Part shown: positions 1 to 26,142 of the stretch, in pieces
Numbering within the stretch: position 1 is the first letter of the stretch
Layout: each line of letters opens with the position of its first letter
NCBI RefSeq assembly: GCF_024462775.1
Contig: NZ_JANGCE010000030.1
Coordinates: forward strand, 1-44,290
Origin: Butyricicoccus faecihominis
GTDB lineage: Bacteria > Bacillota > Clostridia > Oscillospirales > Butyricicoccaceae
Reading direction: 5' to 3'
Length of the DNA: 44,290 nucleotides
The notes under the pieces: model-generated
The model's input: the letters and a program-made list of their open reading frames with translations, nothing else
What the model was told of the DNA's origin: nothing
Databases searched by the model: none
Made by a program: the position numbers and the translations under genes

Positions 1-54
1 CGGCAAAATTCGATTTTATGCGCGCTGCGGCGCGAGGGGTTCTTTGACACGCTG
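1..54. repeat. Partial copy (3' end) of the multi-hairpin intergenic repeat
   Basis: This is the right-hand quarter of a repeat whose full copies lie near 16112-16327 and 24629-24840; the rest is outside the window. It contains the terminal hairpin CGCGC-TGCG-GCGCG (21-34) and the TTCTTTGACA end (40-49), almost identical to the copy at 16281-16320. As in the full copies, it is followed at once by a terminator hairpin with unrelated sequence. No protein is encoded. Confidence 0.85.
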
Positions 55-95
55 AGAAGTACGCTTTCATACCAACGAAAGCGTACTTCTTTTTA
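55..95 (+). terminator. Rho-independent terminator, convergent gene end
   Basis: A perfect 14-bp stem (AGAAGTACGCTTTC at 55-68 with its complement at 77-90) is followed by a T run. The T run lies on the + side, so it should end a gene left of the window. The hairpin also abuts the stop codon of the minus-strand sirtuin gene, so it may serve both directions. Confidence 0.8.
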
Positions 96-16076: not shown

Positions 16077-16111
16077 AAAAGGAACCGAAACTGTTTTGTT
16101 TCGGTTCCTTT
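16077..16111 (+). terminator. Terminator of the SLH gene (first copy)
   Basis: GGAACCGAAA (16081-16090) pairs with TTTCGGTTCC (16099-16108), with A before and three T after; the T run then breaks into the repeat element. The same hairpin recurs at 16326-16361. Confidence 0.8.
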
Positions 16112-16327
16112 AGACTGTCAAAAAACTATTTTTGACAGTCTGTCGATCGAAACAAAGCCCCATTTCGATCGAGAATTCCGACTTCTGCGCGCGCCTTACA
16201 GGCACACTTGAAGCCGGTTTGTATAAAAAACCACGCACATGTCGCGGCTTTTTATGGATTTTGCCGCAAGCGGCAAAATCCTATTTTATGCGCGCTGCGG
16301 CGCGAAGGGGTTCTTTGACAAGCTTAA
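16112..16327. repeat. Multi-hairpin intergenic repeat, full copy
   Basis: About 215 bp, around 85% identical by eye to 24629-24840. Successive helices: 16113-16124/16129-16140; 16143-16152/16163-16172 (TCGATCGAAA arms); CCGACTTC.../GAAGCCGG around 16178-16218; 16224-16232/16246-16254; 16256-16267/16270-16281 (12 bp, AA loop); 16291-16295/16300-16304. The ends are imperfect inverted repeats (CTGTCAAA at left, TTTGACAAG at right). Stems differ from the other copies by paired changes. No open frame spans it. It lies between the convergent SLH and ldh genes. Confidence 0.9.
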
Positions 16328-16361
16328 GGAACCGAAACTGTTTTGTTTCGGTTCCTTTTTT
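16326..16361 (+). terminator. Second copy of the same terminator, before ldh end
   Basis: The hairpin GGAACCGAAA/TTTCGGTTCC (16328-16337/16346-16355) and its 8-base loop are identical to those at 16081-16108, with a full six-T tail. It is only 11 bp from the ldh stop, so it may also stop minus-strand transcripts. Confidence 0.85.
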
Positions 16362-16371
16362 CGGTCTCTTG

Positions 16372-17322
16372 TCAGCCTATGGTCTCCAATTCGCCGATCA
16401 GTTCGCCGAGCTTGTCCGCCGAGGTTTGCAGCTGCCGCAGCTCGTCGTAGGAGAGCGGGATGTCCAGCACCGATTCCACGCCGCCCCGGCCCACGACCGA
16501 GGGCAGGCCCAAACAAAGACCGTTTACGCCGTAATGGCCGCTAATCAGGGAAGAGACCGGCAGTACCGAGTGCTCGTCCCGCACGATGGCCTCCGCGATG
16601 CGGCGCACCGCCATGCCGATGCCGTAATACGTCGCGCCCTTGCCGTCTATGATCGAGTACGCCGCGTCGCGTACATTTTCATAGATGCGCTGCATTGCGC
16701 CAAAGGAATAATCCTTGCCCGTGATGCGGCAGTAATCGGCAAGGTCGACGCCGGAGATGTTGGCCGAGGACCAAACGGCAAGCTCACTGTCGCCGTGCTC
16801 GCCAATGATAAAAGCGTGCACGTTGCGCATATCGACGCCAAGGTGCTGACCCAGCAGGTACTTTAGGCGCGAGGTGTCCAGCACCGTGCCCGAGCCGAGC
16901 ACGCGCCCCGCGGGCAGCCCGGAGATCTTGTGCGCCATATAGGTGAGCACGTCCACCGGGTTGGATACGATCAGCAGGATCGCGTCCTGATTGACATTCA
17001 TAATTTCGTTAATAATAGAGGACATGATCGCTTGGTTGCGGCCCAGCAGCTCGACGCGGGTCTCGCCCGGTTTTTGGTTTGCGCCCGCCGCTATGATGAT
17101 CAGCCCGCAATCCTTCAGTTCGGCGTAGCCGCCCGCGCGCACGTGGCAGGGCCGGGCAAAGGAAATGCCGTGGTTGATATCGGCCGCCTCGCCCTCGGCC
17201 TTTTTCTGGTTCATATCGACAAGGGTGATCTCGGAAAACAGGCCGCTTGTCGCAAGGGTAAAGGCCGAGGTCGCGCCGACGAAGCCCACGCCGATCACAC
17301 CGCATTTTTGAATACTGCTCAT
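16372..17322 (-). CDS. ldh: L-lactate dehydrogenase
   Basis: 316 residues. The Rossmann motif GVGFVGA (11-17) with Asp36 fits NAD use. The substrate loop ANQKPGETR carries Gln83 (pyruvate type rather than malate type) and Arg89. Catalytic His176 lies in IIGEHGDSE. It reduces pyruvate to lactate to regenerate NAD+ in fermentation, in the cytoplasm. Start at ATG 17322 with AGAGGTG upstream. It is a single gene, convergent with the SLH gene at 14692 and divergent from the SLH gene at 17495. Confidence 0.94.
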   Translation of the reverse strand: MSSIQKCGVIGVGFVGATSAFTLATSGLFSEITLVDMNQKKAEGEAADINHGISFARPCHVRAGGYAELKDCGLIIIAAGANQKPGETRVELLGRNQAIMSSIINEIMNVNQDAILLIVSNPVDVLTYMAHKISGLPAGRVLGSGTVLDTSRLKYLLGQHLGVDMRNVHAFIIGEHGDSELAVWSSANISGVDLADYCRITGKDYSFGAMQRIYENVRDAAYSIIDGKGATYYGIGMAVRRIAEAIVRDEHSVLPVSSLISGHYGVNGLCLGLPSVVGRGGVESVLDIPLSYDELRQLQTSADKLGELIGELETIG

Positions 17323-17386
17323 GGCAAAGACACCTCTTTTTTAATTCGTTTGGTTTAGTATGCCCGTAAATCACAAATCCTTTCGG

Positions 17387-17415
17387 TTGGCAAGGCACAG
17401 AGAATATGCTATAAT
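17387..17415 (+). promoter_or_regulatory. Promoter of the SLH gene at 17495
   Basis: TTGGCA (17387-17392), 17-bp spacer, TATAAT (17410-17415). Confidence 0.7.
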
Positions 17416-17494
17416 GATGGCACGGATTTGACTATTTTCTATAAAAAACGCGCGCCGGCGCGCGAGTCTTTGCGACAGATAAGGAGAAAAAACG

Positions 17495-18790
17495 ATGAAA
17501 AAAATGTTTCGTATCGCGTGCGCGGGCGCAGCGCTCTGCGCCGCGCTTTCCACAGCCGCTCTGGCGGCTGATTTTACCCAAAGCGCGGACCGTTTGCACG
17601 AACTGGGCCTGTTTCAGGGCACGGAAGACGGCTACGAGCTGGACCGCGCGCCCACACGGGCTGAAGCGGCCGCTATGCTGACCCGTCTGCTCGGTAAGGA
17701 GAGCGAGGCAAAGAGCCTGACCTATTCCGCGCCCTTTACCGATCTGCAAAACTGGGAAAAGCCTTATGTGCAGTACTTATATGAAAACGGCCTGACCACC
17801 GGCGCGACGGCTACTACCTATGAGCCCGAAGCGCCGCTGACCGCGAATATGTATGCTGCTTTTCTGCTGCGGGCGCTCGGCTATAGCGATACGGCGGGCG
17901 ATTTTACCTATCGCGGCGCTTCCGACTATGCGGAAGAACTCGGCGTGTACGATGAAACCATTGTGGATGCCGGCCATTTTTTGCGCGACCATGTGGCCGC
18001 GGCGAGCTATACCGCGCTGGCCGCGCAGCCCAAGGGCAGCGACAAAACGTTATTGCGCACACTGACCGAGCAGGGCGCGGTGGATAAAACGGCGGCCGAG
18101 CCTTATCTTGCGCAGTTCGCGGTCTATCAGGAATACCGCGAGGCGACCGCCGGAATGGACGATCTAAAAGCGCTGGAGGTGACGCACACCTTGACCGGCT
18201 CGATCAGCGCTTCGTGGGAGAACCGCGAAAAAGATAAGCTGTTCGACCTGACCAGCGCGGAGACCTTAAAGCTTGACCGCGTTTCGCCCGCCCTGCTTTC
18301 GGAGCGCACCGTTACCATGCGCGCGCCGGACGGAACGGAAAAGACCTTTATCGCCGAAAGCTATACGGCGGACGGCATGCGGTATGTTTCGCAGAACGGT
18401 GTGAAAGCCCGCACCGCGCAGACGGCCGAGCAGATGCATGCGCTCACCGGCTCCTACGCCCGCGTGCCGGCGGCTTTGGTGGAGAATATCGCGAAAAGCG
18501 GCAACGGCGGCTATGTCATTACCTATAATAAGGCTGGCCTGAACCGCCTCGACGGCGCGCTGGGCGCCGCCGCGGATGCGGTGGGCCGGCTGGGCGATAT
18601 GACGATCTACTCCGTTTTCGTCAAGCACAACGTGTCCGGCGGCCGCATCGTATCGCAGGGCACCACGGTGGAGTTCGACGGCGGCACGGTGGCCGGTACG
18701 CTGTTTAGCGAAATGGAGCTGGTCGCGGTGGACGACAAAGTCGTTTTGACGCCGCCGGAAAATTTATCTCAATATCCCCTCGCAAAATAG
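17495..18790 (+). CDS. Secreted SLH protein, paralogue of 14692-16065
   Basis: 431 residues. Signal peptide MKKMFRIACAGAALCAALSTAALA, then an SLH region to about residue 140 nearly identical in plan to the 14692 protein (GLFQGTEDGYELDRAPTRAEAAAMLTRLLGKE, FTDLQNWEKPYVQYLYENGLTTG). A C-terminal domain of about 220 residues (YTADGMRYVSQNGVKA, NGGYVITYNKAGLNRLDGALG) matches the paralogue in layout but lacks the methionine runs. The wall-bound location is inferred from SLH; the function of the distal domain is unknown. ATG 17495 has AAGGAG upstream. The next gene follows after 61 bp. Confidence 0.8.
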   Translation: MKKMFRIACAGAALCAALSTAALAADFTQSADRLHELGLFQGTEDGYELDRAPTRAEAAAMLTRLLGKESEAKSLTYSAPFTDLQNWEKPYVQYLYENGLTTGATATTYEPEAPLTANMYAAFLLRALGYSDTAGDFTYRGASDYAEELGVYDETIVDAGHFLRDHVAAASYTALAAQPKGSDKTLLRTLTEQGAVDKTAAEPYLAQFAVYQEYREATAGMDDLKALEVTHTLTGSISASWENREKDKLFDLTSAETLKLDRVSPALLSERTVTMRAPDGTEKTFIAESYTADGMRYVSQNGVKARTAQTAEQMHALTGSYARVPAALVENIAKSGNGGYVITYNKAGLNRLDGALGAAADAVGRLGDMTIYSVFVKHNVSGGRIVSQGTTVEFDGGTVAGTLFSEMELVAVDDKVVLTPPENLSQYPLAK

Positions 18791-18851
18791 GAACAAAAGG
18801 AGACCCCTGCCGTCTAAGATTGCAGAAGCCTATTAAAGGAGGATATTGATT

Positions 18852-19850
18852 ATGAAAAAGAGATTTTTAGCAGCAGTGCTTGGCGCTGCCATGCTGGGCG
18901 CTACCGCCTTTGCCGCCGACCCGGCGGCGCCTGAGGACACGACCCCGGCCGAACCCGGCAACTACCCCTATACGATCGGCGAGGAAGCCACCGTGCTTGA
19001 AATGCAGCAGGGCTCCGGCGAGTATGCGGATATGCTGGTTAAAACCGATACGCATGAGGAACTGGTACTGCATTTTTCCGAAAACACGCTGCTCATGGAT
19101 ACGCAGACCGGATTTTTGGCCAATGAAACCGACCTGAACAAGGGCGACAAGGTATACGTTTACTACGGCGCCGCGATGACCCGCAGCCTGCCGCCGCAGG
19201 TCACGGCCGAAGCCGTGCTGGTCAATCTGGACGATAAGCATTCGCCCGCGCACCTGCTGACCGCGGAAGAGGTCGTGCGCAATCAGGACGGCAGCGTTAC
19301 CATTCTGGCCGAATCCGGCAGCATGTTCGTGACCATTCCGGCTGAGACCGACATCCGCCCGCTGGCTACCAAGAATATTGTTTCCTTGGAAGATATCCAC
19401 ATGGGCACCCAGCTGTTCGCTTGGTATGATTTTATGGCGCTTTCCATGCCCGGTCAGGCCACTGCGACCAAGGTCGTGCTGCCGCCCCAGCAGGATCGCG
19501 CATTCACCATGATCCATGAAGGCGACATCGCGATCGGCGAGGGCAAGGTGGAAAACGGTATCGCGATGGTGCCGCTGCGCGCCGCCGCCGAAGCCAAGGG
19601 CTTTACCGTTACTTGGAACGGCAAGGATCAGAGCGTTCAGCTCTCGAACGGCGAGATCCAGACCACGGTAACGCTGGGCGAGGATCTGTACTACTATGCC
19701 TCTGCCAAGGCTGTCGGCATGTCCAAGCCGAGCCCGCTCGGCGCTGCCTCCTATGAGCAGGACGGCACGACTTGGGCTCCGGCTCAACTCATAACCCTGC
19801 TGTGCGGCGAAAATTCCGCCGTGCTGATGGGCAGCGTAATGTATCTGTAA
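18852..19850 (+). CDS. Secreted protein with copper-amine-oxidase-N-like stalk domain
   Basis: 332 residues. A signal peptide (MKKRFLAAVLGAAMLGATAFA) is followed by a beta-rich region (about 35-215, YPYTIGEEATVLEMQQG...). The C-terminal segment ENGIAMVPLRAAAEAKGFTVTWNGKDQSVQLSNGEIQTTVTLG (about 235-280) is the classic copper amine oxidase N-terminal domain pattern, common as a stand-alone surface module in Clostridia and unrelated to oxidase activity. ATG 18852 has AAAGGAGG eight bases upstream. Probably co-transcribed with the SLH gene before it, and ended by a strong terminator. Confidence 0.8.
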   Translation: MKKRFLAAVLGAAMLGATAFAADPAAPEDTTPAEPGNYPYTIGEEATVLEMQQGSGEYADMLVKTDTHEELVLHFSENTLLMDTQTGFLANETDLNKGDKVYVYYGAAMTRSLPPQVTAEAVLVNLDDKHSPAHLLTAEEVVRNQDGSVTILAESGSMFVTIPAETDIRPLATKNIVSLEDIHMGTQLFAWYDFMALSMPGQATATKVVLPPQQDRAFTMIHEGDIAIGEGKVENGIAMVPLRAAAEAKGFTVTWNGKDQSVQLSNGEIQTTVTLGEDLYYYASAKAVGMSKPSPLGAASYEQDGTTWAPAQLITLLCGENSAVLMGSVMYL

Positions 19851-19863
19851 AGATCAAAACATG

Positions 19864-19907
19864 AAAAAAGAGCTTTCCCCAAGTTTTTGGGGAAAGCTCT
19901 TTTTTTA
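19864..19907 (+). terminator. Strong terminator after the secreted protein gene
   Basis: AGAGCTTTCCCCAA pairs with TTGGGGAAAGCTCT (19869-19896 overall), with A before and seven T after. Confidence 0.93.
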
Positions 19908-19949
19908 TGCCCTTATAGGGCTTGTTCATGCCGCCCCGCTTTGGGGTGG

Positions 19950-20267
19950 TCATGACTTTCGTCCCGTAAGGGCGGCTCGTACAACACCCTTGGGGTCGCG
20001 GATCAGCAGAGAGACCACCCAAATGACCAGCCCCAGCGCGACAGCGGAAAGGCCAAGGTACAGATCGTTCAGCATGTCCGGCAGGGCGGGGGTGAAAAAG
20101 GCCGCGCCCTGTTCCGCGTATGAAAAGATCGCGTCCACCAGCCACATCAGGGAAGCGCCCCAATACATCCAGCACAGAATGCCGACGCGCAGATCGTTAT
20201 TCGGCGCGTTTTTATACCAAACAGCGGTGCTGATGACCGCGGCAAAAACGGTGATAAGTAAGGTCAT
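19950..20267 (-). CDS. Small three-helix membrane protein
   Basis: 105 residues with hydrophobic stretches at about 2-18, 28-48 and 70-90, and a positively charged end (RDPKGVVRAALTGRKS). The second stretch is tryptophan-rich (CWMYWGASLMWLVDAIF). I do not recognise the family. It starts 5 bp after the stop of the next upstream gene (20273-20689), so both are surely one operon and may form a complex. The Met codon at 20267 has AGAGGT upstream within the preceding gene's end. Confidence 0.65.
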   Translation of the reverse strand: MTLLITVFAAVISTAVWYKNAPNNDLRVGILCWMYWGASLMWLVDAIFSYAEQGAAFFTPALPDMLNDLYLGLSAVALGLVIWVVSLLIRDPKGVVRAALTGRKS

Positions 20268-20272
20268 CCGGT

Positions 20273-20689
20273 TTACCTCTGTTCGGAGGCAGGCTCCGGC
20301 AGCCGGGCCTTTTTCTCCATGGCGTTCGTAACCAGCACCATGGCGCCCCAGACCGCCGTGACGAGCAGCGCCATGCTAACGCCCACCGTGGCCATTTCAT
20401 GCATCATCACGGAAGCGTCCGCGGGGTTCGCGGCCGCGGTGAGGAAGGGAAACCACGGCACGATTTCACCGTGCCAAAGGTGCTCGAACGCAAGCAGGAC
20501 CGAACCGCCCCAGAGCAGGCTCGAAAGCCACTTCAGCTTGCGCGAGAAGGGAATTTTCGTCTGTGTTTCCGCGTGCGCGAGCTCCGCGCCGCCTATGCGC
20601 ACGGACGCTTCCTTTTCCTTCGATTTCATGATGCGCGCGGCGATCGTGGTAACGACGGCCTCGGCGACAGGAACGACAAAACATGCCAT
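20273..20689 (-). CDS. Small membrane protein, first gene of a two-gene operon
   Basis: 138 residues: a hydrophobic N-terminus (MACFVVPVAEAVVTTIAARI), a charged stretch (about 22-50), two helices around 52-66 and 100-122, and a hydrophilic tail. Proteins beginning FVVPVAEAVVTT occur in Firmicutes without known function. The start ATG 20689 is preceded by AAGGGGG. It lies downstream of tRNA-Ser on the same strand, separated by a hairpin. Role unknown; a two-subunit membrane assembly with the next gene is a guess. Confidence 0.65.
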   Translation of the reverse strand: MACFVVPVAEAVVTTIAARIMKSKEKEASVRIGGAELAHAETQTKIPFSRKLKWLSSLLWGGSVLLAFEHLWHGEIVPWFPFLTAAANPADASVMMHEMATVGVSMALLVTAVWGAMVLVTNAMEKKARLPEPASEQR

Positions 20690-20739
20690 GATAAATCCCC
20701 CTTATTTCAATGATCCTTAAAAAATAGTACAAACCTAGA

Positions 20740-20787
20740 TAATAAAGAAAAGTTGACAGATTTCCCAAAACGGCAACCTGTCAACTT
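20740..20787 (-). terminator. Hairpin between tRNA-Ser and the membrane gene pair
   Basis: On the minus strand AAGTTGACAG (20787-20778) pairs with CTGTCAACTT (20759-20750), followed by TTCTTTATT. It can end the tRNA-Ser transcript. The left arm contains TTGACA and could also act as a promoter or operator element. Confidence 0.55.
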
Positions 20788-20792
20788 CTTCT

Positions 20793-20883
20793 TGGCGGAG
20801 AAGGTGGGATTCGAACCCACGTGCCGTGTTACCGGCAACTCGATTTCGAGTCGAGCTCGTTATGACCACTTCGATACTTCTCC
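20793..20883 (-). tRNA. tRNA-Ser (CGA)
   Basis: A class II tRNA of 88 bases plus encoded CCA (20793-20795). Acceptor GGAGAAG pairs with CTTCTCC, discriminator G. The anticodon stem CTCGA/TCGAG encloses CTCGAAA, giving anticodon CGA for UCG codons. The long variable arm (TTGCCGGTAACACGGCA region) and the T arm GTGGG-TTCGAAT-CCCAC are clear. Confidence 0.95.
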
Positions 20884-20924
20884 GGATGCTGGGTGGTCAC
20901 ACCTGTTCTCACAAGTGCCTATAT

Positions 20925-20953
20925 AGTTTATCATAGATTTTAGCGGGATACAA
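20925..20953 (-). promoter_or_regulatory. tRNA-Ser promoter
   Basis: Minus strand TTGTAT (20953-20948), 17-bp spacer, TAAACT (20930-20925). Confidence 0.6.
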
Positions 20954-21004
20954 GAGGCTGGAACAAAAAAAATCGTCTAAATTTGTCGAATTATGTCGAC
21001 AACC

Positions 21005-21033
21005 TTGCAAGGGGCAGGTTTACGTGATAAAAT
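21005..21033 (+). promoter_or_regulatory. gltX promoter
   Basis: TTGCAA (21005-21010), 17-bp spacer, TAAAAT (21028-21033). Confidence 0.6.
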
Positions 21034-21084
21034 ATCAATATCGCGGAAAAATATGCCCGCAGACACGTTTTTGGAGTGAAAAGA

Positions 21085-22743
21085 ATGGATCATACTATAC
21101 TGGCGGAACGACTGTTTCCGCATATTACGGAAACGCCCGAACAGGTAGAAGCGCGCTATCCCCAAAGAGAGTTGCCCGAAGGCGCTAAGGTGACCCGCAT
21201 GGGCCCCAGCCCGACCGGCTTTATGCATTTGGGCAACCTATTTGGCGCGCTGGTGGACGAACGGCTGGCGCACCAATCCGGCGGCGTGTTCTACCTTCGC
21301 ATCGAAGATACCGATAAAAAGCGCGAGGTCGAAGGCGGCGTGCAGACCATTCTTTCCGCTTTTTCGTCCTTTGGCCTGCCGTTCGACGAAGGCGCGACCC
21401 TGACGGGAGACAATGGCGCTTACGGGCCCTACAGACAGAGCCAGCGCGCCGAGATCTACCAGACCTTTGTAAAAAGTTTGGTGCAGCGCGGCCTTGCATA
21501 TCCGTGCTTTTGCACCGAGGACGAGCTTGCCGCCGCGCACGCGCGACAGGAGCAGAATAAAGAAAACTTCGGCTATTACGGTTCCTACGCGGTCTGGCGC
21601 GACCGGCCGATGGAGGATATCGAGGCGGCGCTCGCGCAGGGCTTACCCTATGTGATCCGCTTCCGTTCAGAGGGCTCAATCGAAAACAAGGTGCGCCACG
21701 AGGATCTGGTCAAGGGCAAAATGGAACTGACCGAGAACGATCAAGATATCGTGATCCTGAAATCGGACGGCATACCGACCTACCATTTCGCCCATGTGGT
21801 GGACGACCACCTGATGGGCACGACCGTGGTCGTGCGCGGCGAAGAGTGGCTCGCCACGCTGCCCGTTCATTTACAGCTGTTTCGCGCCATGGGCTGGAAG
21901 GCGCCCAAGTACGCGCACACCGCGCAGTTGATGAAGATTGACCCGGAGACCGGCGGCAAGCGCAAGCTGTCCAAGCGCAAGGACCCGGAGCTAGCGCTCG
22001 ATTTCTATTACGCGGAGGGTTACCCGGTGCCCGCCGTGCTCGAATACCTAATGACGCTTCTCAATTCCAACTTTGAGGAATGGCGACGCGCCAACCCGGA
22101 TCTGCCGATGAACGATTTCCCGTTCACAACCAAGAAGATGAGCGGCTCCGGCGCGCTGTTCGATATCGAAAAGCTGCGCGACGTGTCGAAAAACGTCATC
22201 TCCCGCATGTCGGCTGAGACCGTGTACGACTATGTGGCCGATTGGAGCCGCGATCACGACGCCGCGTTCCACGCCCTTTTCACGCAGGAGCCGGAAAAGA
22301 GCAAGGCTTATCTCGCCATTGGACGCGGCGGCAAGAAGCCGCGCAAGGATCTGGCGCTTTGGTCGGACGTCAAACCCTATATGGACTTTTTGTTTGACGA
22401 GCTGTTCCAGCCCGATTACACCATGCCGGAGCGCGTTTCGGCAGAGGATGCGAAGGCCATTCTGGCAGCCTATGCCGCGGAATTTGATGGTAGCGACACG
22501 CCGGACGCCTTCTTTGAAAAAATGAAGAAGCTGGCCGACCGGTTTGGCTTTGCCAGCGATACCAAGGCCTACAAGGAAAACCCGGATCAGTTCAAGGGCC
22601 CGGTGGGCGACGTTTCAATGGTCATCCGTGTTGCGGTGGCGGGGCGGCAGAATGCGCCCGACCTGCAATCGGTCATGGGCATTATGGGGCGCGAAGCCGT
22701 ATTAAAGCGGCTGAAGAAATGCGAAAGAGCAATTAGTAATTAG
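21085..22743 (+). CDS. gltX: Glutamyl-tRNA synthetase
   Basis: 552 residues, longer than the common form of about 480. The class I signatures are PSPTGFMHLGN (about 41-51, the HIGH motif) and KLSKRKD (about 294-300, the KMSKS motif), with the acceptor-binding region IEDTDKKREVEGG between. It charges tRNA-Glu. Start at ATG 21085 with GGAG nine bases upstream; an in-frame GTG three codons earlier overlaps that site. The last residues (AISN) and the TAG stop come from the heptad repeat that follows, so the C-terminus has been set by the repeat. glnS follows on the same strand. Confidence 0.94.
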   Translation: MDHTILAERLFPHITETPEQVEARYPQRELPEGAKVTRMGPSPTGFMHLGNLFGALVDERLAHQSGGVFYLRIEDTDKKREVEGGVQTILSAFSSFGLPFDEGATLTGDNGAYGPYRQSQRAEIYQTFVKSLVQRGLAYPCFCTEDELAAAHARQEQNKENFGYYGSYAVWRDRPMEDIEAALAQGLPYVIRFRSEGSIENKVRHEDLVKGKMELTENDQDIVILKSDGIPTYHFAHVVDDHLMGTTVVVRGEEWLATLPVHLQLFRAMGWKAPKYAHTAQLMKIDPETGGKRKLSKRKDPELALDFYYAEGYPVPAVLEYLMTLLNSNFEEWRRANPDLPMNDFPFTTKKMSGSGALFDIEKLRDVSKNVISRMSAETVYDYVADWSRDHDAAFHALFTQEPEKSKAYLAIGRGGKKPRKDLALWSDVKPYMDFLFDELFQPDYTMPERVSAEDAKAILAAYAAEFDGSDTPDAFFEKMKKLADRFGFASDTKAYKENPDQFKGPVGDVSMVIRVAVAGRQNAPDLQSVMGIMGREAVLKRLKKCERAISN

Positions 22744-22920
22744 TAATTAGTAATTATGGAGTCCGGCGGAGCCGGACATCTTGAGAATTTTTAGGAGGTA
22801 GGAGTTAGGAAGTAGGAAGTAGGAGTTAGGAAAGCGGTATTTGCGCGCAGCGCATTAATTTCATGCCGGCTATGCCGGCGTTCCGCAATTTCTAATTTCT
22901 AATTTCTAAATCCTAATTTA
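22734..22920. repeat. Heptad-repeat element between gltX and glnS
   Basis: Three 7-bp periodic blocks: ATTAGTA units at about 22734-22756, running from the last codons of gltX; TAGGAGG/TAGGAGT/TAGGAAG units at about 22793-22829; and complementary ATTTCTA units at about 22890-22919, ending 10 bp before glnS. Unique stretches between them hold short palindromes (TCCGGCGGAGCCGGA and GCCGGCTATGCCGGC). The arms can fold into a long hairpin in the gltX-glnS RNA. Confidence 0.85.
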
Positions 22921-22929
22921 AAAGAGAAA

Positions 22930-24588
22930 ATGTTGGAAAACGTAAACAACTTTTTGACTGAGATCATCGACGAGGATCTCGCGGCGGGCCTTGCCGAAAG
23001 GATACACACCCGCTTCCCGCCGGAGCCGAACGGCTATCTGCACATCGGCTCGGCCAAGGCGATTTTTATCAACTGGTCGATCGCCAAGAAGTACGGCGGC
23101 CTGTTCAACCTGCGTTACGACGATACCAACCCGGTCAAAGAGGATACGGAGTACGTCGATTCGATCTGGGAGGATATCAAGTGGCTGACCGGCGAAGAGC
23201 CGAACGGCGGCGTTTACTACGGTTCGGACTATTTCGAGACTTGCTATGAATGCGCCGTGCAGCTCATCCGCGACGGGAAGGCCTTTGTGTGCGACCTGAC
23301 GCAGGAGGAAATGCGCGCCTACCGCGGCTCGCTTAAAGCGCCGGGGAAAGAAAGCCCCTACCGTGACCGTTCGGTCGAAGAAAACCTGCGCCTTTTTGAA
23401 GAGATGCGCGCGGGCAAGTATCCGGACGGTTCTAAAACGCTGCGCGCCAAGATCGACATGGCGAGCCGCAACATGAACCTGCGCGACCCCGCGATCTACC
23501 GTATCGTACGGGCGCATCACCACCGGCAGGGGGATGCGTGGTGCATTTATCCGCTGTACGATTTCGCGCACCCGATCCAAGACGCGATCGAGGGCATCAC
23601 GCATTCGATGTGTTCGATCGAGTTTGAAAACCACCGGCCGCTGTATGAGTGGGTCGTGGACAACTGTCCGTTGCCGCACCACCCCAAGCAGCGCGAATTT
23701 GCCCGCCTGAATGTGACCAATACGGTCATGAGCAAGCGCTACCTGCGCGAGCTGGTAGAGACCGGCCGCGTCGAGGGCTGGGACGATCCGCGCATGCCCA
23801 CTCTTTCCGCGCTGCGCCGCCGTGGCTATACGCCCTCCGCGATTTTGGACTTTGTGCAGCGCGCGGGCATCGCCAAGGCGAATAGTCTGGTCGATATCAA
23901 GCTGCTGGAACACTGTATCCGCGAGGAGCTGAACAAGACCGCGCTGCGCCGCATGGCCGTGCTGGAGCCGATCAAGCTGACAATTACCAACTATCCGGAG
24001 GACAAGCAGGAGTCGTTCGAGATCGCGAACAATCCACAGGATGAAGCCACCGGCACCCGCATGGTGCCGTTCACGCGCGAGCTTTATATTGAAAAAAGCG
24101 ACTTTGCCGAGGTGCCGCCTCCGAAGTTCCAGCGCCTCAAGCCGGACGGCGAGGTCCGCCTGATGGGCGCGTATATCGTGAAGTGCAACGAGATCGTTAA
24201 GGATGAGAACGGCGAGGTCGTTGAGCTGCGCTGCACGGCCGATCTGGAAACCGGCAACGGCATGCCGGCGGATGGCCGCAAGGTGCGCGGCACGATCCAT
24301 TGGGTATCCGCGCCGACCGCGATCGACGCGGAGGTCTATCTGTATGAAAACCTCTTCACGCTGGAAAACACGGCGGACGTACCGGAAGGCACCAATTACC
24401 TCGATTTCCTTAACCCGGATTCGCTGAAAAAGCTGTCCGGCTGCAAGCTGGAGCCGTCTGTTGCCGAAGTGGAAACGGGCGCGCACATGCAGTTTGTCCG
24501 TATGGGCTATTTCGTAAAAGATCGTGAACCCGGCCGCTTCAACCGTGTCGTCACGCTTAAGGATAGCTTTGCGAAAACATTAAAATAA
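22930..24588 (+). CDS. glnS: Glutaminyl-tRNA synthetase
   Basis: 552 residues, the standard GlnRS length. Signatures: RFPPEPNGYLHIG (28-40), NLRYDDTNPVKEDTEYVDSI, the HHHRQGDAWCIYPLYDFAHPIQDAIEGITHSMCSIEFE block and VMSKR (266-270). The two-barrel anticodon-binding half is complete. It charges tRNA-Gln directly, which many Firmicutes do by GatCAB transamidation instead. ATG 22930 has only a weak AAAAGAG site because the heptad repeat ends directly before it, so expression may depend on read-through from gltX. It is followed by a perfect terminator. Confidence 0.96.
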   Translation: MLENVNNFLTEIIDEDLAAGLAERIHTRFPPEPNGYLHIGSAKAIFINWSIAKKYGGLFNLRYDDTNPVKEDTEYVDSIWEDIKWLTGEEPNGGVYYGSDYFETCYECAVQLIRDGKAFVCDLTQEEMRAYRGSLKAPGKESPYRDRSVEENLRLFEEMRAGKYPDGSKTLRAKIDMASRNMNLRDPAIYRIVRAHHHRQGDAWCIYPLYDFAHPIQDAIEGITHSMCSIEFENHRPLYEWVVDNCPLPHHPKQREFARLNVTNTVMSKRYLRELVETGRVEGWDDPRMPTLSALRRRGYTPSAILDFVQRAGIAKANSLVDIKLLEHCIREELNKTALRRMAVLEPIKLTITNYPEDKQESFEIANNPQDEATGTRMVPFTRELYIEKSDFAEVPPPKFQRLKPDGEVRLMGAYIVKCNEIVKDENGEVVELRCTADLETGNGMPADGRKVRGTIHWVSAPTAIDAEVYLYENLFTLENTADVPEGTNYLDFLNPDSLKKLSGCKLEPSVAEVETGAHMQFVRMGYFVKDREPGRFNRVVTLKDSFAKTLK

Positions 24589-24594
24589 TGCATA

Positions 24595-24628
24595 AAAAGC
24601 GCCTTGCAGTTTTCTGCAAGGCGCTTTT
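24595..24628 (+). terminator. glnS terminator (first copy)
   Basis: AAAAGCGCCTTGCAG (24595-24609) pairs perfectly with its complement at 24614-24628 around a TTTT loop. The multi-hairpin repeat begins directly at its 3' edge. Confidence 0.93.
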
Positions 24629-24840
24629 AGGCTGTCAAAAACGGGTTTTTGACAGCCTTCGATCGAAACAAAGCCCCATTTCGATCGAGTATTCCGGCTT
24701 CTGCGCGCGCCTTACAGGCACACTGGAAGTCGGTTTGTATAAAAACTCACGCACATGTCGCGAGTTTTTATGGCTTTGCCGCAAGTGGCAAAAGCCTATT
24801 TTATGCACGCTGCGGCGTGAGGACTGTTTTAACAGGCTAA
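24629..24840. repeat. Multi-hairpin intergenic repeat, second full copy
   Basis: It matches 16112-16327 along its whole length. Helices: 24630-24641/24646-24657; the TCGATCGAAA/TTTCGATCGA arms near 24659-24688; CCGGCTTC/GAAGTCGG; 24740-24748/24762-24770; the GCCGC-AA-GTGGC hairpin near 24777-24790; 24806-24810/24815-24819. Against the other copy, stem 1 changes A-T to G-C, the AT-rich stem changes its closing pairs together, and the last stem changes G-C to A-T (CACGC/GCGTG). It lies between the convergent glnS and antiporter genes. Confidence 0.9.
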
Positions 24841-24875
24841 GGCGTCTCTTGCAGTATTCCGCAAGGCACTTTGGG
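24838..24875. terminator. Diverged second copy of the glnS terminator
   Basis: The sequence from about 24840 to 24872 repeats the glnS terminator with changes: CTTGCAGTATTCCGCAAGGC against CTTGCAGTTTTCTGCAAGGC. The stem is weaker and the T run is lost. It abuts the stop of the minus-strand antiporter gene, so it may serve that gene poorly. Confidence 0.6.
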
Positions 24876-24879
24876 TATT

Positions 24880-26142
24880 TTAGGGAGTTTCTTCGTCGTC
24901 TGTTTCGTCCGGCGAATGGGGGGGCGGGTTTTTCAGATGCTCCTTGGGGATCGCGCCGGAGAGGGTGAGCGCCAGCTTGGCGCAGGCCGGGCCGATCAGT
25001 TCGTATAGCACGGACGAGGCTAGAATGATCGTCAGCAGCATGTTGCCGACGGCGGGCGGCAGCAGCCGCTGGCCAAGGAACGCAAGGCCGATCGCAACAC
25101 CCGCCTGCGGGATCAGGGCAAGGCCGAGGTATTTGCGGATCTCCGGCGGGGCGTGCGTTGCTCGCGCGCCCAGATAAGCGCCGCCGTATTTGCCCAGAAT
25201 ACGGATGAAGAAATAGGAAACGCCGATGATGCCCACCGTGCCAAGCAGGCGAATGTCCAGATTCATACCGGACACGATGAAGAAAATACTCATCACGGGC
25301 GGCGTGAAGCCGTTTAGTTGGTGGAACAGCGCCTTGTCGCGCGTCAGGTTGATGTAGGATGCGCCAAACACCATGCAGGAGAGCAGGGGAGAGATATCGA
25401 CCAGCGCGCACAGGCCGGAAAGACCGAGCAGCATGGCCACCACCAAAATGAGCCGGTTGTCGCGCGAGCGGGTCGTCGGGCGAAGCAGCCGCGCGAGCAG
25501 CCAGCCGCAAACAAAACCGAGGCAGATGGCGAGCAGGTTGTAAACAATGGGTAAAACAATATCGAGTACCGCCGTTACGCCGGTATCGTGGCTGTTGACA
25601 AGCGCGGAAGCAACGCTAAAGGCCAGTAGGCAAACAACATCGTCCAGCGCGGCCACTTGCAGCAACGTATCGACAAATTCGCCCTTCGCGTGGTATTGGT
25701 TGATGGTCATCATCGTGCTGGCGGGCGCGGTGGCGGTCGCGATCGCGCCGAGCAGCAGGGAAAAAGCGCTGGGCAGGCCGAAAATGAAGTACATTGCCAA
25801 CGAAATGAGCACGCCTGCCAGCAACGATTCCATCACAGTAATGACGATAACGCCCCAGCCGGTCTTTTTCAGCGTTTTCTTACGGAAAAACTTGCCCACG
25901 CCAAATGCGATAAAGGCCAAAGCAATATCGCTGACAAAGCCCATACGGTCGACGATTTGATGGGGCACGAGGCCGAGCGCATGTGGGCCGATGATCATAC
26001 CGGCCAGAATAAAGCCGCTTACATTGGGCAGATGCAGCCGCTTGGTCAGGCGTGTGAGAAGAAAGCCTGAAAAAAGGATCAGGCTGAGTGCGATCAGGAC
26101 AGAAGTATTTTCTGTCAAAGGTTCATAAAGTGCAGATAACAT
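24880..26142 (-). CDS. CPA2-family (KefB-like) cation:proton antiporter
   Basis: 420 residues with about 12 membrane helices. Family signs are LPNVSGFILAGMIIGPHALGLVP near the N-terminus, a long conserved block around ALDDVVCLLAFSVASAL (discontinuous-helix aspartates DD) and CGWLLARLLRP. There is no C-terminal RCK/TrkA-N domain; the chain ends in a short hydrophilic tail (PPHSPDETDDEETP). It probably exchanges Na+ or K+ for H+ in the plasma membrane. Start at ATG 26142 with AGGAGG eight bases upstream; an in-frame GTG three codons earlier abuts that site. Confidence 0.88.
   Translation of the reverse strand: MLSALYEPLTENTSVLIALSLILFSGFLLTRLTKRLHLPNVSGFILAGMIIGPHALGLVPHQIVDRMGFVSDIALAFIAFGVGKFFRKKTLKKTGWGVIVITVMESLLAGVLISLAMYFIFGLPSAFSLLLGAIATATAPASTMMTINQYHAKGEFVDTLLQVAALDDVVCLLAFSVASALVNSHDTGVTAVLDIVLPIVYNLLAICLGFVCGWLLARLLRPTTRSRDNRLILVVAMLLGLSGLCALVDISPLLSCMVFGASYINLTRDKALFHQLNGFTPPVMSIFFIVSGMNLDIRLLGTVGIIGVSYFFIRILGKYGGAYLGARATHAPPEIRKYLGLALIPQAGVAIGLAFLGQRLLPPAVGNMLLTIILASSVLYELIGPACAKLALTLSGAIPKEHLKNPPPHSPDETDDEETP

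Follow-up and report, generated by a model that had tools for sequence, protein, structure and literature searches.

The window analysed here is a stretch of 44,290 nucleotides (nt) of Butyricicoccus faecihominis, contig C24 (NZ_JANGCE010000030.1) of the 3.69-Mb draft genome G000. It carries a 212-bp multi-hairpin repeat, present as two near-complete copies, A (16112-16324) and B (24629-24838), and as the right end of a third, copy C, which is cut by the start of the contig (1-53). All three had been recorded in the initial annotation, and they are the three best matches in the window to a covariance model that was itself built from copies including A and B (scores in Table 1). Their places were given correctly and their edges slightly short: the element is bounded by CAG...CTG, just beyond the limits first assigned, and these outer bases have degenerated in both near-complete copies. 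What had gone unnoticed is the nature of the flanks. Copy A lies between two copies of one and the same terminator hairpin, and the hairpin to the left of copy B has a decayed counterpart on the right. We consider it very likely that the repeat is a miniature inverted-repeat transposable element (MITE) of the IS1182 family, with a target duplication that comprises a whole hairpin and is of variable length.

Table 1. Copies of the repeat in the window and the hairpins that flank them.
Feature	Position	Strand	Evidence or remark
Left copy of the duplicated terminator hairpin (AAGGAACCGAAAC-TGTTTT-GTTTCGGTTCCTT)	16079-16110		33-nt exact direct repeat, 16079-16111 / 16326-16358
MITE copy A, TAG...CTT	16111-16325	+	255.5 bits, BLAST; 16111 may instead belong to the T-tract of the hairpin
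Left-end hairpin H1 of copy A, with terminal repeat AGACTGTCAAAAA/TTTTTGACAGTCT	16112-16141	+	sequence, consensus fold
Right copy of the hairpin of copy A, then native T-tract	16326-16357		direct repeat, flank alignment
Left copy of the second terminator hairpin (AAAGCGCCTTGCAG-TTTT-CTGCAAGGCGCTTT)	24596-24627		flank alignment
MITE copy B, TAG...CTA	24628-24839	+	225.8 bits, BLAST
Right counterpart of the second hairpin, decayed, with approximate edges	24839-24872		flank alignment score 17.5
MITE copy C, right end, cut by contig start, ends GCTG at 54	1-54	+	48.5 bits
Right-hand terminator hairpin of copy C	55-90		near copy left of the element on contig C53; G004 ortholog has a single hairpin and no element

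The repeat is abundant in its own genome. BLAST with one copy as the query finds at least 40 distinct places (the best 40 of 93 candidates were scored), some of which are halves split by contig ends, and a pattern search for the left end with the next helix adds at least 11 further places. A covariance-model search for more copies had been proposed from the window alone; it returned matches in all 25 genomes of the genus examined and in 9 of 62 other genomes of the family (E <= 1e-4, best 27 candidates scored per genome). A scan of the named genomes for the core pattern yielded no match.

Terminator-like hairpins stand on both sides of 31 of the 46 own-genome copies, and the hairpin differs from locus to locus. 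The 60 bases on the left side of each copy were aligned locally with the sequence to its right (score >=17.5), and a copy was counted when the left hairpin ended no more than 3 nt from the element. Among the other 15 are copies that run off a contig end, truncated copies, an exchange case (L034) and a copy interrupted by another insertion sequence (IS; L032). The same interrupted copy, viewed as L060, does show the hairpin repeat.

What do these sites look like where the element is missing? Filled and empty alleles were compared between G000 and G004, a genome of the same species assembled as one contig. We sought orthologs for 43 insertions apparently present in only one of the two genomes: 23 of the 32 G004 insertions, the others having flanks common to G000, and 20 of the G000 loci L001-L029, from which L005, L015, L016 and L020 were omitted by choice and the rest as shared insertions. 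For 36 of the 43 an ortholog was found and compared, and 27 of these pairs were measured, taking CAG and CTG as the fixed limits of the element. In 22 of the 27, the hairpin is single in the empty allele and present twice in the filled one. The target duplication in these 22 pairs is 25-44 bp long (median 32.5), and in none of them is its centre more than 1 nt away from the hairpin dyad. Duplication length correlates with hairpin length, the hairpin being delimited by its G+C pairs (r=0.72, p=1.4e-4); the junction was extrapolated by 1-4 nt in four of the 22 pairs and in L094 (the listed cases being L116, L099, L013 and L094). Removal of the hairpin without duplication, the outcome typical of IS1272, was not encountered in the filled/empty pairs.

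Copy C could be followed across contigs. Its left flank lies on contig C53, and in G004 both flanks are joined, with one hairpin and no element. On its right, the element on C53 has a hairpin from a different site, the other half of which is the end of contig C8; that site is likewise empty in G004 and has one hairpin. The mismatched hairpins of L034 would reflect either an exchange between two copies or a misassembly, each of the sites having a single hairpin in G004.

The ends of the MITE, CAG[AG]CTGTCAAA…TTTGACAMGCTG, are nearly those of an IS1182-type transposase fragment encoded in the same genome. This fragment, the only PF13751 match in G000 (C9:6-284), is the 123-amino-acid end of a transposase at the start of a contig. 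Beyond it, an IS end, CAGACTGTCAAAGAACC, abuts a hairpin, and the right ends of MITE copies L060 and L108 are identical to that IS end (17/17 bases). In NCBIfam the fragment matches the IS1182 family only, at 91.2 bits, which is below the cut-off of 270, as expected of a fragment. A MITE-like element with imperfect terminal inverted repeats had been one of the initial suggestions, and the terminal repeat had been correctly placed. The repeat does match a known transposon end, that of the IS1182 family, and such a match had been listed beforehand as refuting evidence.

A search of 87 family genomes for the transposase gave matches in five, one of them with a full reading frame. This relative (L161 in genome G045) encodes 492 amino acids and scores 403.5 bits against NCBIfam NF033551 (IS1182, cut-off 270); the element ends in CAGTCTGTCGA...TCGACAGGCTG and has an identical 30-bp hairpin on both flanks. 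In four further partial or decayed IS copies from the genus or family (L089, L090, L091, L164), inspected by eye, a hairpin follows directly after the right end. Autonomous elements were further represented by 42 IS1182 loci with near-full transposase matches, out of 80 loci kept in the named genomes. At 22 of the 42, matching hairpin repeats of 22-36 bp are located at the ends or a few nt away, and repeat length follows hairpin length (r=0.91 for 21 repeats; L225, whose repeat overlapped the IS end, was left out). The observed median stem score equals the 99.5th percentile of random segments. Within one IS group, six O. valericigenes copies have repeats ranging from 23 to 30 bp. Hairpin repeats also flank 24 of 53 diverged MITE copies from the genus and family, 14 by the script rule and 10 by eye, the latter having a right end 16-29 bp past the model end (the 53 are 55 loci minus the duplicate L306 and L300, which has a short flank). 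Shared ends, empty sites with a single hairpin, the length and symmetry of the duplication, and the like arrangement at autonomous IS1182 elements carry the interpretation as an IS1182-family MITE that duplicates its hairpin target.

Several observations weigh against this interpretation. No transposition was observed, and the insertions are known from sequence comparison. The transposase of the own genome is a fragment at a contig end, with no active source in hand, and G004 contains no match to this fragment. The commonest right ends of the MITE, GACAAGCT (16/47) and GACACGCT (15/47), differ from the IS end at about two bases. Clean duplications number 22 when all 36 compared pairs, rather than just the 27 measured, are taken as the denominator, which lowers our confidence very slightly. 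Five measured pairs are without a full duplication: L117 has a duplication of 13 bp only, the right ends of L007 and L018 were not placed by the script (the flanks of L007 nonetheless show two hairpins), and at L112 and L105 the other genome retains remnants of the element. The nine unmeasured pairs consist of four sites occupied in both genomes (L010, L002, L114, L003), two with the right part only (L092, L093) and three whose flanks do not align on both sides (L120, L001, L012). Of the window copies, B (L001) thus lacks a clean empty counterpart, and A (L005) was outside the tested set. An earlier and cruder length test on the MITE gave r=0.31 (p=0.15); chance matches had lengthened some of the overlaps, and this test was superseded by the one with ends fixed at CAG and CTG. 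Among the autonomous elements, 20 of the 42 loci are without matching repeats. Thirteen of these 20 were scored: ten have two different hairpins, one per end (L167, L169, L170, L172, L185, L187, L188, L201, L210, L215), and three have a hairpin on the left only (L192, L193, L212). The weakest observed stem score is reached by 14.7% of random segments at these loci. The different hairpins at the two ends point to exchange between copies, misassembly or another route of insertion.

Some sites showed further rearrangements. L114 and L139, as well as L003 and L148, are pairs in which the same site is occupied in opposite orientations in the two strains, as would result from two hits on one hairpin or from an inversion of the element. 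The remnants at L112/L142 and L105/L132 look as if the segment between a flanking hairpin and the GCGCGCTGCGGCGCG hairpin of the element itself had been deleted. At L046, compared with L123, and at L002, the two flanking hairpins carry their loops in opposite senses. The loop at L046 may have flipped after insertion; at the G004 site both loops have the same sense.

How could a single element produce duplications that differ so much in length? A DDE transposase of fixed geometry is not expected to span 25-44 nt on linear B-DNA, with a stagger that varies from site to site. We propose that an IS1182-family DDE transposase recognises the CAG[AG]CTGTCAAA ends and would mobilise the MITE in trans, and that its target is a structure rather than a sequence, namely the hairpin of a putatively functional rho-independent terminator. 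Extruded as a cruciform, such a hairpin would bring phosphates 25-44 nt apart into close proximity, and both strands could then be joined symmetrically at the hairpin base, at the 5' feet. Joining in this manner would leave the hairpin single-stranded on each side. Gap repair would copy the whole hairpin, so that the target duplication would equal the hairpin and vary with it, whereas joining at the 3' feet would lose the hairpin. Each convergent gene would keep an intact hairpin with its own T-tract; insertion would therefore be nearly harmless, which would allow a high copy number. Crude gene calls place 22 of 58 own-species sites between convergent genes, 31 between tandem and 5 between divergent genes, 58 of 68 copies having a gene on both sides. 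The duplications found here are those predicted by the duplication pathway that Wan et al. 2017 left as possible (PMC5678879).

The initial annotation had also noted that several helices change on both arms together, and had taken this to mean that the fold is under selection or matters for spreading, perhaps as a structured RNA. The paired changes are real. RNAalifold predicts 62 pairs from 47 own-species copies, 13 of which show changes on both sides. In 54 distinct diverged copies 55 of the 62 pairs have changed on both sides, compared to a mean of 30.5 after shuffling (0/500 shuffles), and 96.6% of cells pair; this alignment was fitted to the structure of the covariance model, derived from the 47 own-species copies, and is hence biased toward it. 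Is the helix kept as RNA? If it were, on one strand, it should tolerate G·U over A·C. Stem mismatches are nearly equal, with 39 G·T versus 46 A·C among 85 (p=0.52), so that there is no sign of this strand being maintained as RNA. Own-species copies have 13 G·T versus 19 A·C when a single G·T pair of the consensus (columns 73/106) is excluded, and a small control, four tRNAs in a row in the window, has 5 versus 0 in 84 pairs. Helix H3 alone shows 15 G·T versus 8 A·C. Without H3 and its inner part the numbers are 18 versus 32 (p=0.065), a tendency that, if real, would favour G·U on the complementary strand. The covariation noted at the outset is confirmed. It seems that matching arms are maintained as palindromes in the DNA more than by selection on RNA; correction of palindromes when they are replicated, or some function of the hairpins in transposition, would have that effect. 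Rfam detects only five tRNAs in the window at gathering score and none of its families on the element, and a lax search of 24560-24900 produced 18 matches, each under its gathering score.

Some diverged copies consist of the core, H2-H6, alone and have neither the left-end hairpin nor IS1182 ends or terminator repeats (L254, L256, L259, L291, L293, L294, L295, L301, L302, L311, L312). By eye, they are located between genes of apparent operons in related species, in both orientations. Their sites include what we take to be the lexA-recG spacer (L254, L259) and positions beside genes that are presumably pheT, priA, infB, topA, rplB and pyrC. The spacer before the recG-like gene was traced via the start of the downstream protein in 24 of the 25 genus genomes (L344-L368). 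It contains the whole core in L344, L350 and L357, and pieces or a rearranged form in L345, L346, L347, L348, L349 and L351, the last of these inverted as well as rearranged; in the remaining genomes traced no core is visible by eye. This pattern suggests that the core could spread or be inherited without IS1182 ends. Operon sites, either orientation, and the internal deletions and partial remnants at one site are consistent with a core that may spread by some other route. A broader proposal joins two ideas: that, as a rule for a whole branch of IS1182, the folded target, read from a cruciform, dictates how long the duplication becomes, and that the core is independently mobile and was captured between IS1182 ends in this species. 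We offer this combination tentatively and find it somewhat doubtful.

Could the element be first of all a structured RNA, such as a riboregulator or leader, with selection on the transcript preserving the fold and mobility being secondary? In favour, the genus-wide covariation is very strong, at 55 of 62 pairs in the structure-fitted alignment, core-only copies without transposon ends lie between genes of apparent operons, H3 alone leans to G·T, and the opposite lean of the other helices would amount to G·U on the other strand. Against it, the core-only copies, judged by eye, face the next gene in both orientations, 22 of the 58 classified own-species sites fall between convergent genes, and the balance of mismatches over all stems is even, in contrast to that of the window tRNAs. 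With no Rfam match at gathering score either, we regard a structured RNA as unlikely.

The two hairpins might instead be older than the insertion, as tandem terminators, or the second might have arisen later by gene conversion. Such an origin would accommodate the ten IS1182 loci and the MITE site L034, where the hairpins on the two sides differ, but it was already disfavoured by the single hairpin at 22 of the 27 measured empty sites, and the differing hairpins of L034 are accounted for by two sites, both with a single hairpin in G004, that were exchanged or misassembled; we consider such an origin very improbable. Slightly less credible still is ordinary transposition with a fixed stagger and a preference for terminators. 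IS families with preferred sites are common, as is generally known, but here the duplications of one element span 25-44 bp, and those around its autonomous relatives 22-36 bp, in both cases following the hairpin; if the alignments are right, this spread refutes a fixed stagger. Group II introns, IS200/IS605-type elements and integron cassettes were dropped as readings without a dedicated test, IS1182 being in agreement with the ends, with the neighbouring transposase and with the duplications.

An IS1182-family MITE with hairpin duplication has precedents in part. According to the available sections of two papers, IS1272 and TnSha1 share with our element the transposase family and the targeting of hairpins by structure and not by sequence, terminators included (PMC4923244, PMC5678879). 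For TnSha1, an IS1182-family element of staphylococci, five of seven sequenced sites were confirmed as terminators (Furi et al. 2016, PMC4923244). As these sections describe it, the target hairpin of IS1272 and TnSha1 is partly deleted or replaced, without duplication, whereas the present element duplicates the entire hairpin. Wan et al. drew both a deletion and a duplication pathway, assigned deletion to IS1272 and left duplication hypothetical (PMC5678879). Both papers cite Siguier et al. 2015 for some IS1182 members targeting palindromes. Excerpts of other articles report IS1182 members with 4-bp direct repeats (PMC3281130, PMC3196728) and list IS1182 among the families over-represented between converging genes (PMC9208149). 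Like the BOX, RUP and SPRITE MITEs, the element is short, non-coding, palindromic and intergenic; unlike them, as far as the available main text of PMC10969869 describes them, it has a duplicated terminator hairpin as its target, and the term IS1182 is absent from that text. Among the papers listed in our search of the open-licence literature, which is not proof of absence, there is no account of this element, nor, apart from what Wan et al. drew, of an IS or MITE that duplicates a whole hairpin. The IS1182 family and its preference for hairpins are thus known, and it is whole-hairpin duplication as a rule, documented with empty sites, that was not found there. ISfinder reportedly gives direct repeats of 0-60 bp for IS1182, and long repeats may already be recorded in it.

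The length of a target duplication is usually treated as a constant of the transposase; the 22 natural insertions suggest that it can be a read-out of target shape. IS1272, a member of the same family, gives the opposite outcome, deletion, which makes strand polarity at the cruciform directly testable. Duplicated terminators could serve to find insertions of this kind, and they may explain how the parasite reaches a high copy number without breaking genes.

Variant forms of the element were also seen. L049 (G000:C34 near 33052) and L052 (G000:C44 near 4942) are minimal elements, a palindrome of about 33 bp made of the two terminal repeats, and each sits between two different terminator hairpins. 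Helix H4 occurs in a long variant, with an extra GCCCGTAGGCC...AATGAGAG insert, in L030, L031 and L033-L036, and the same insert is present in another species (L350). A second type of palindromic repeat, containing TGTCATTCTGAG or TGTCATCCTGAG, lies inside or beside copies L037, L039 and L047.

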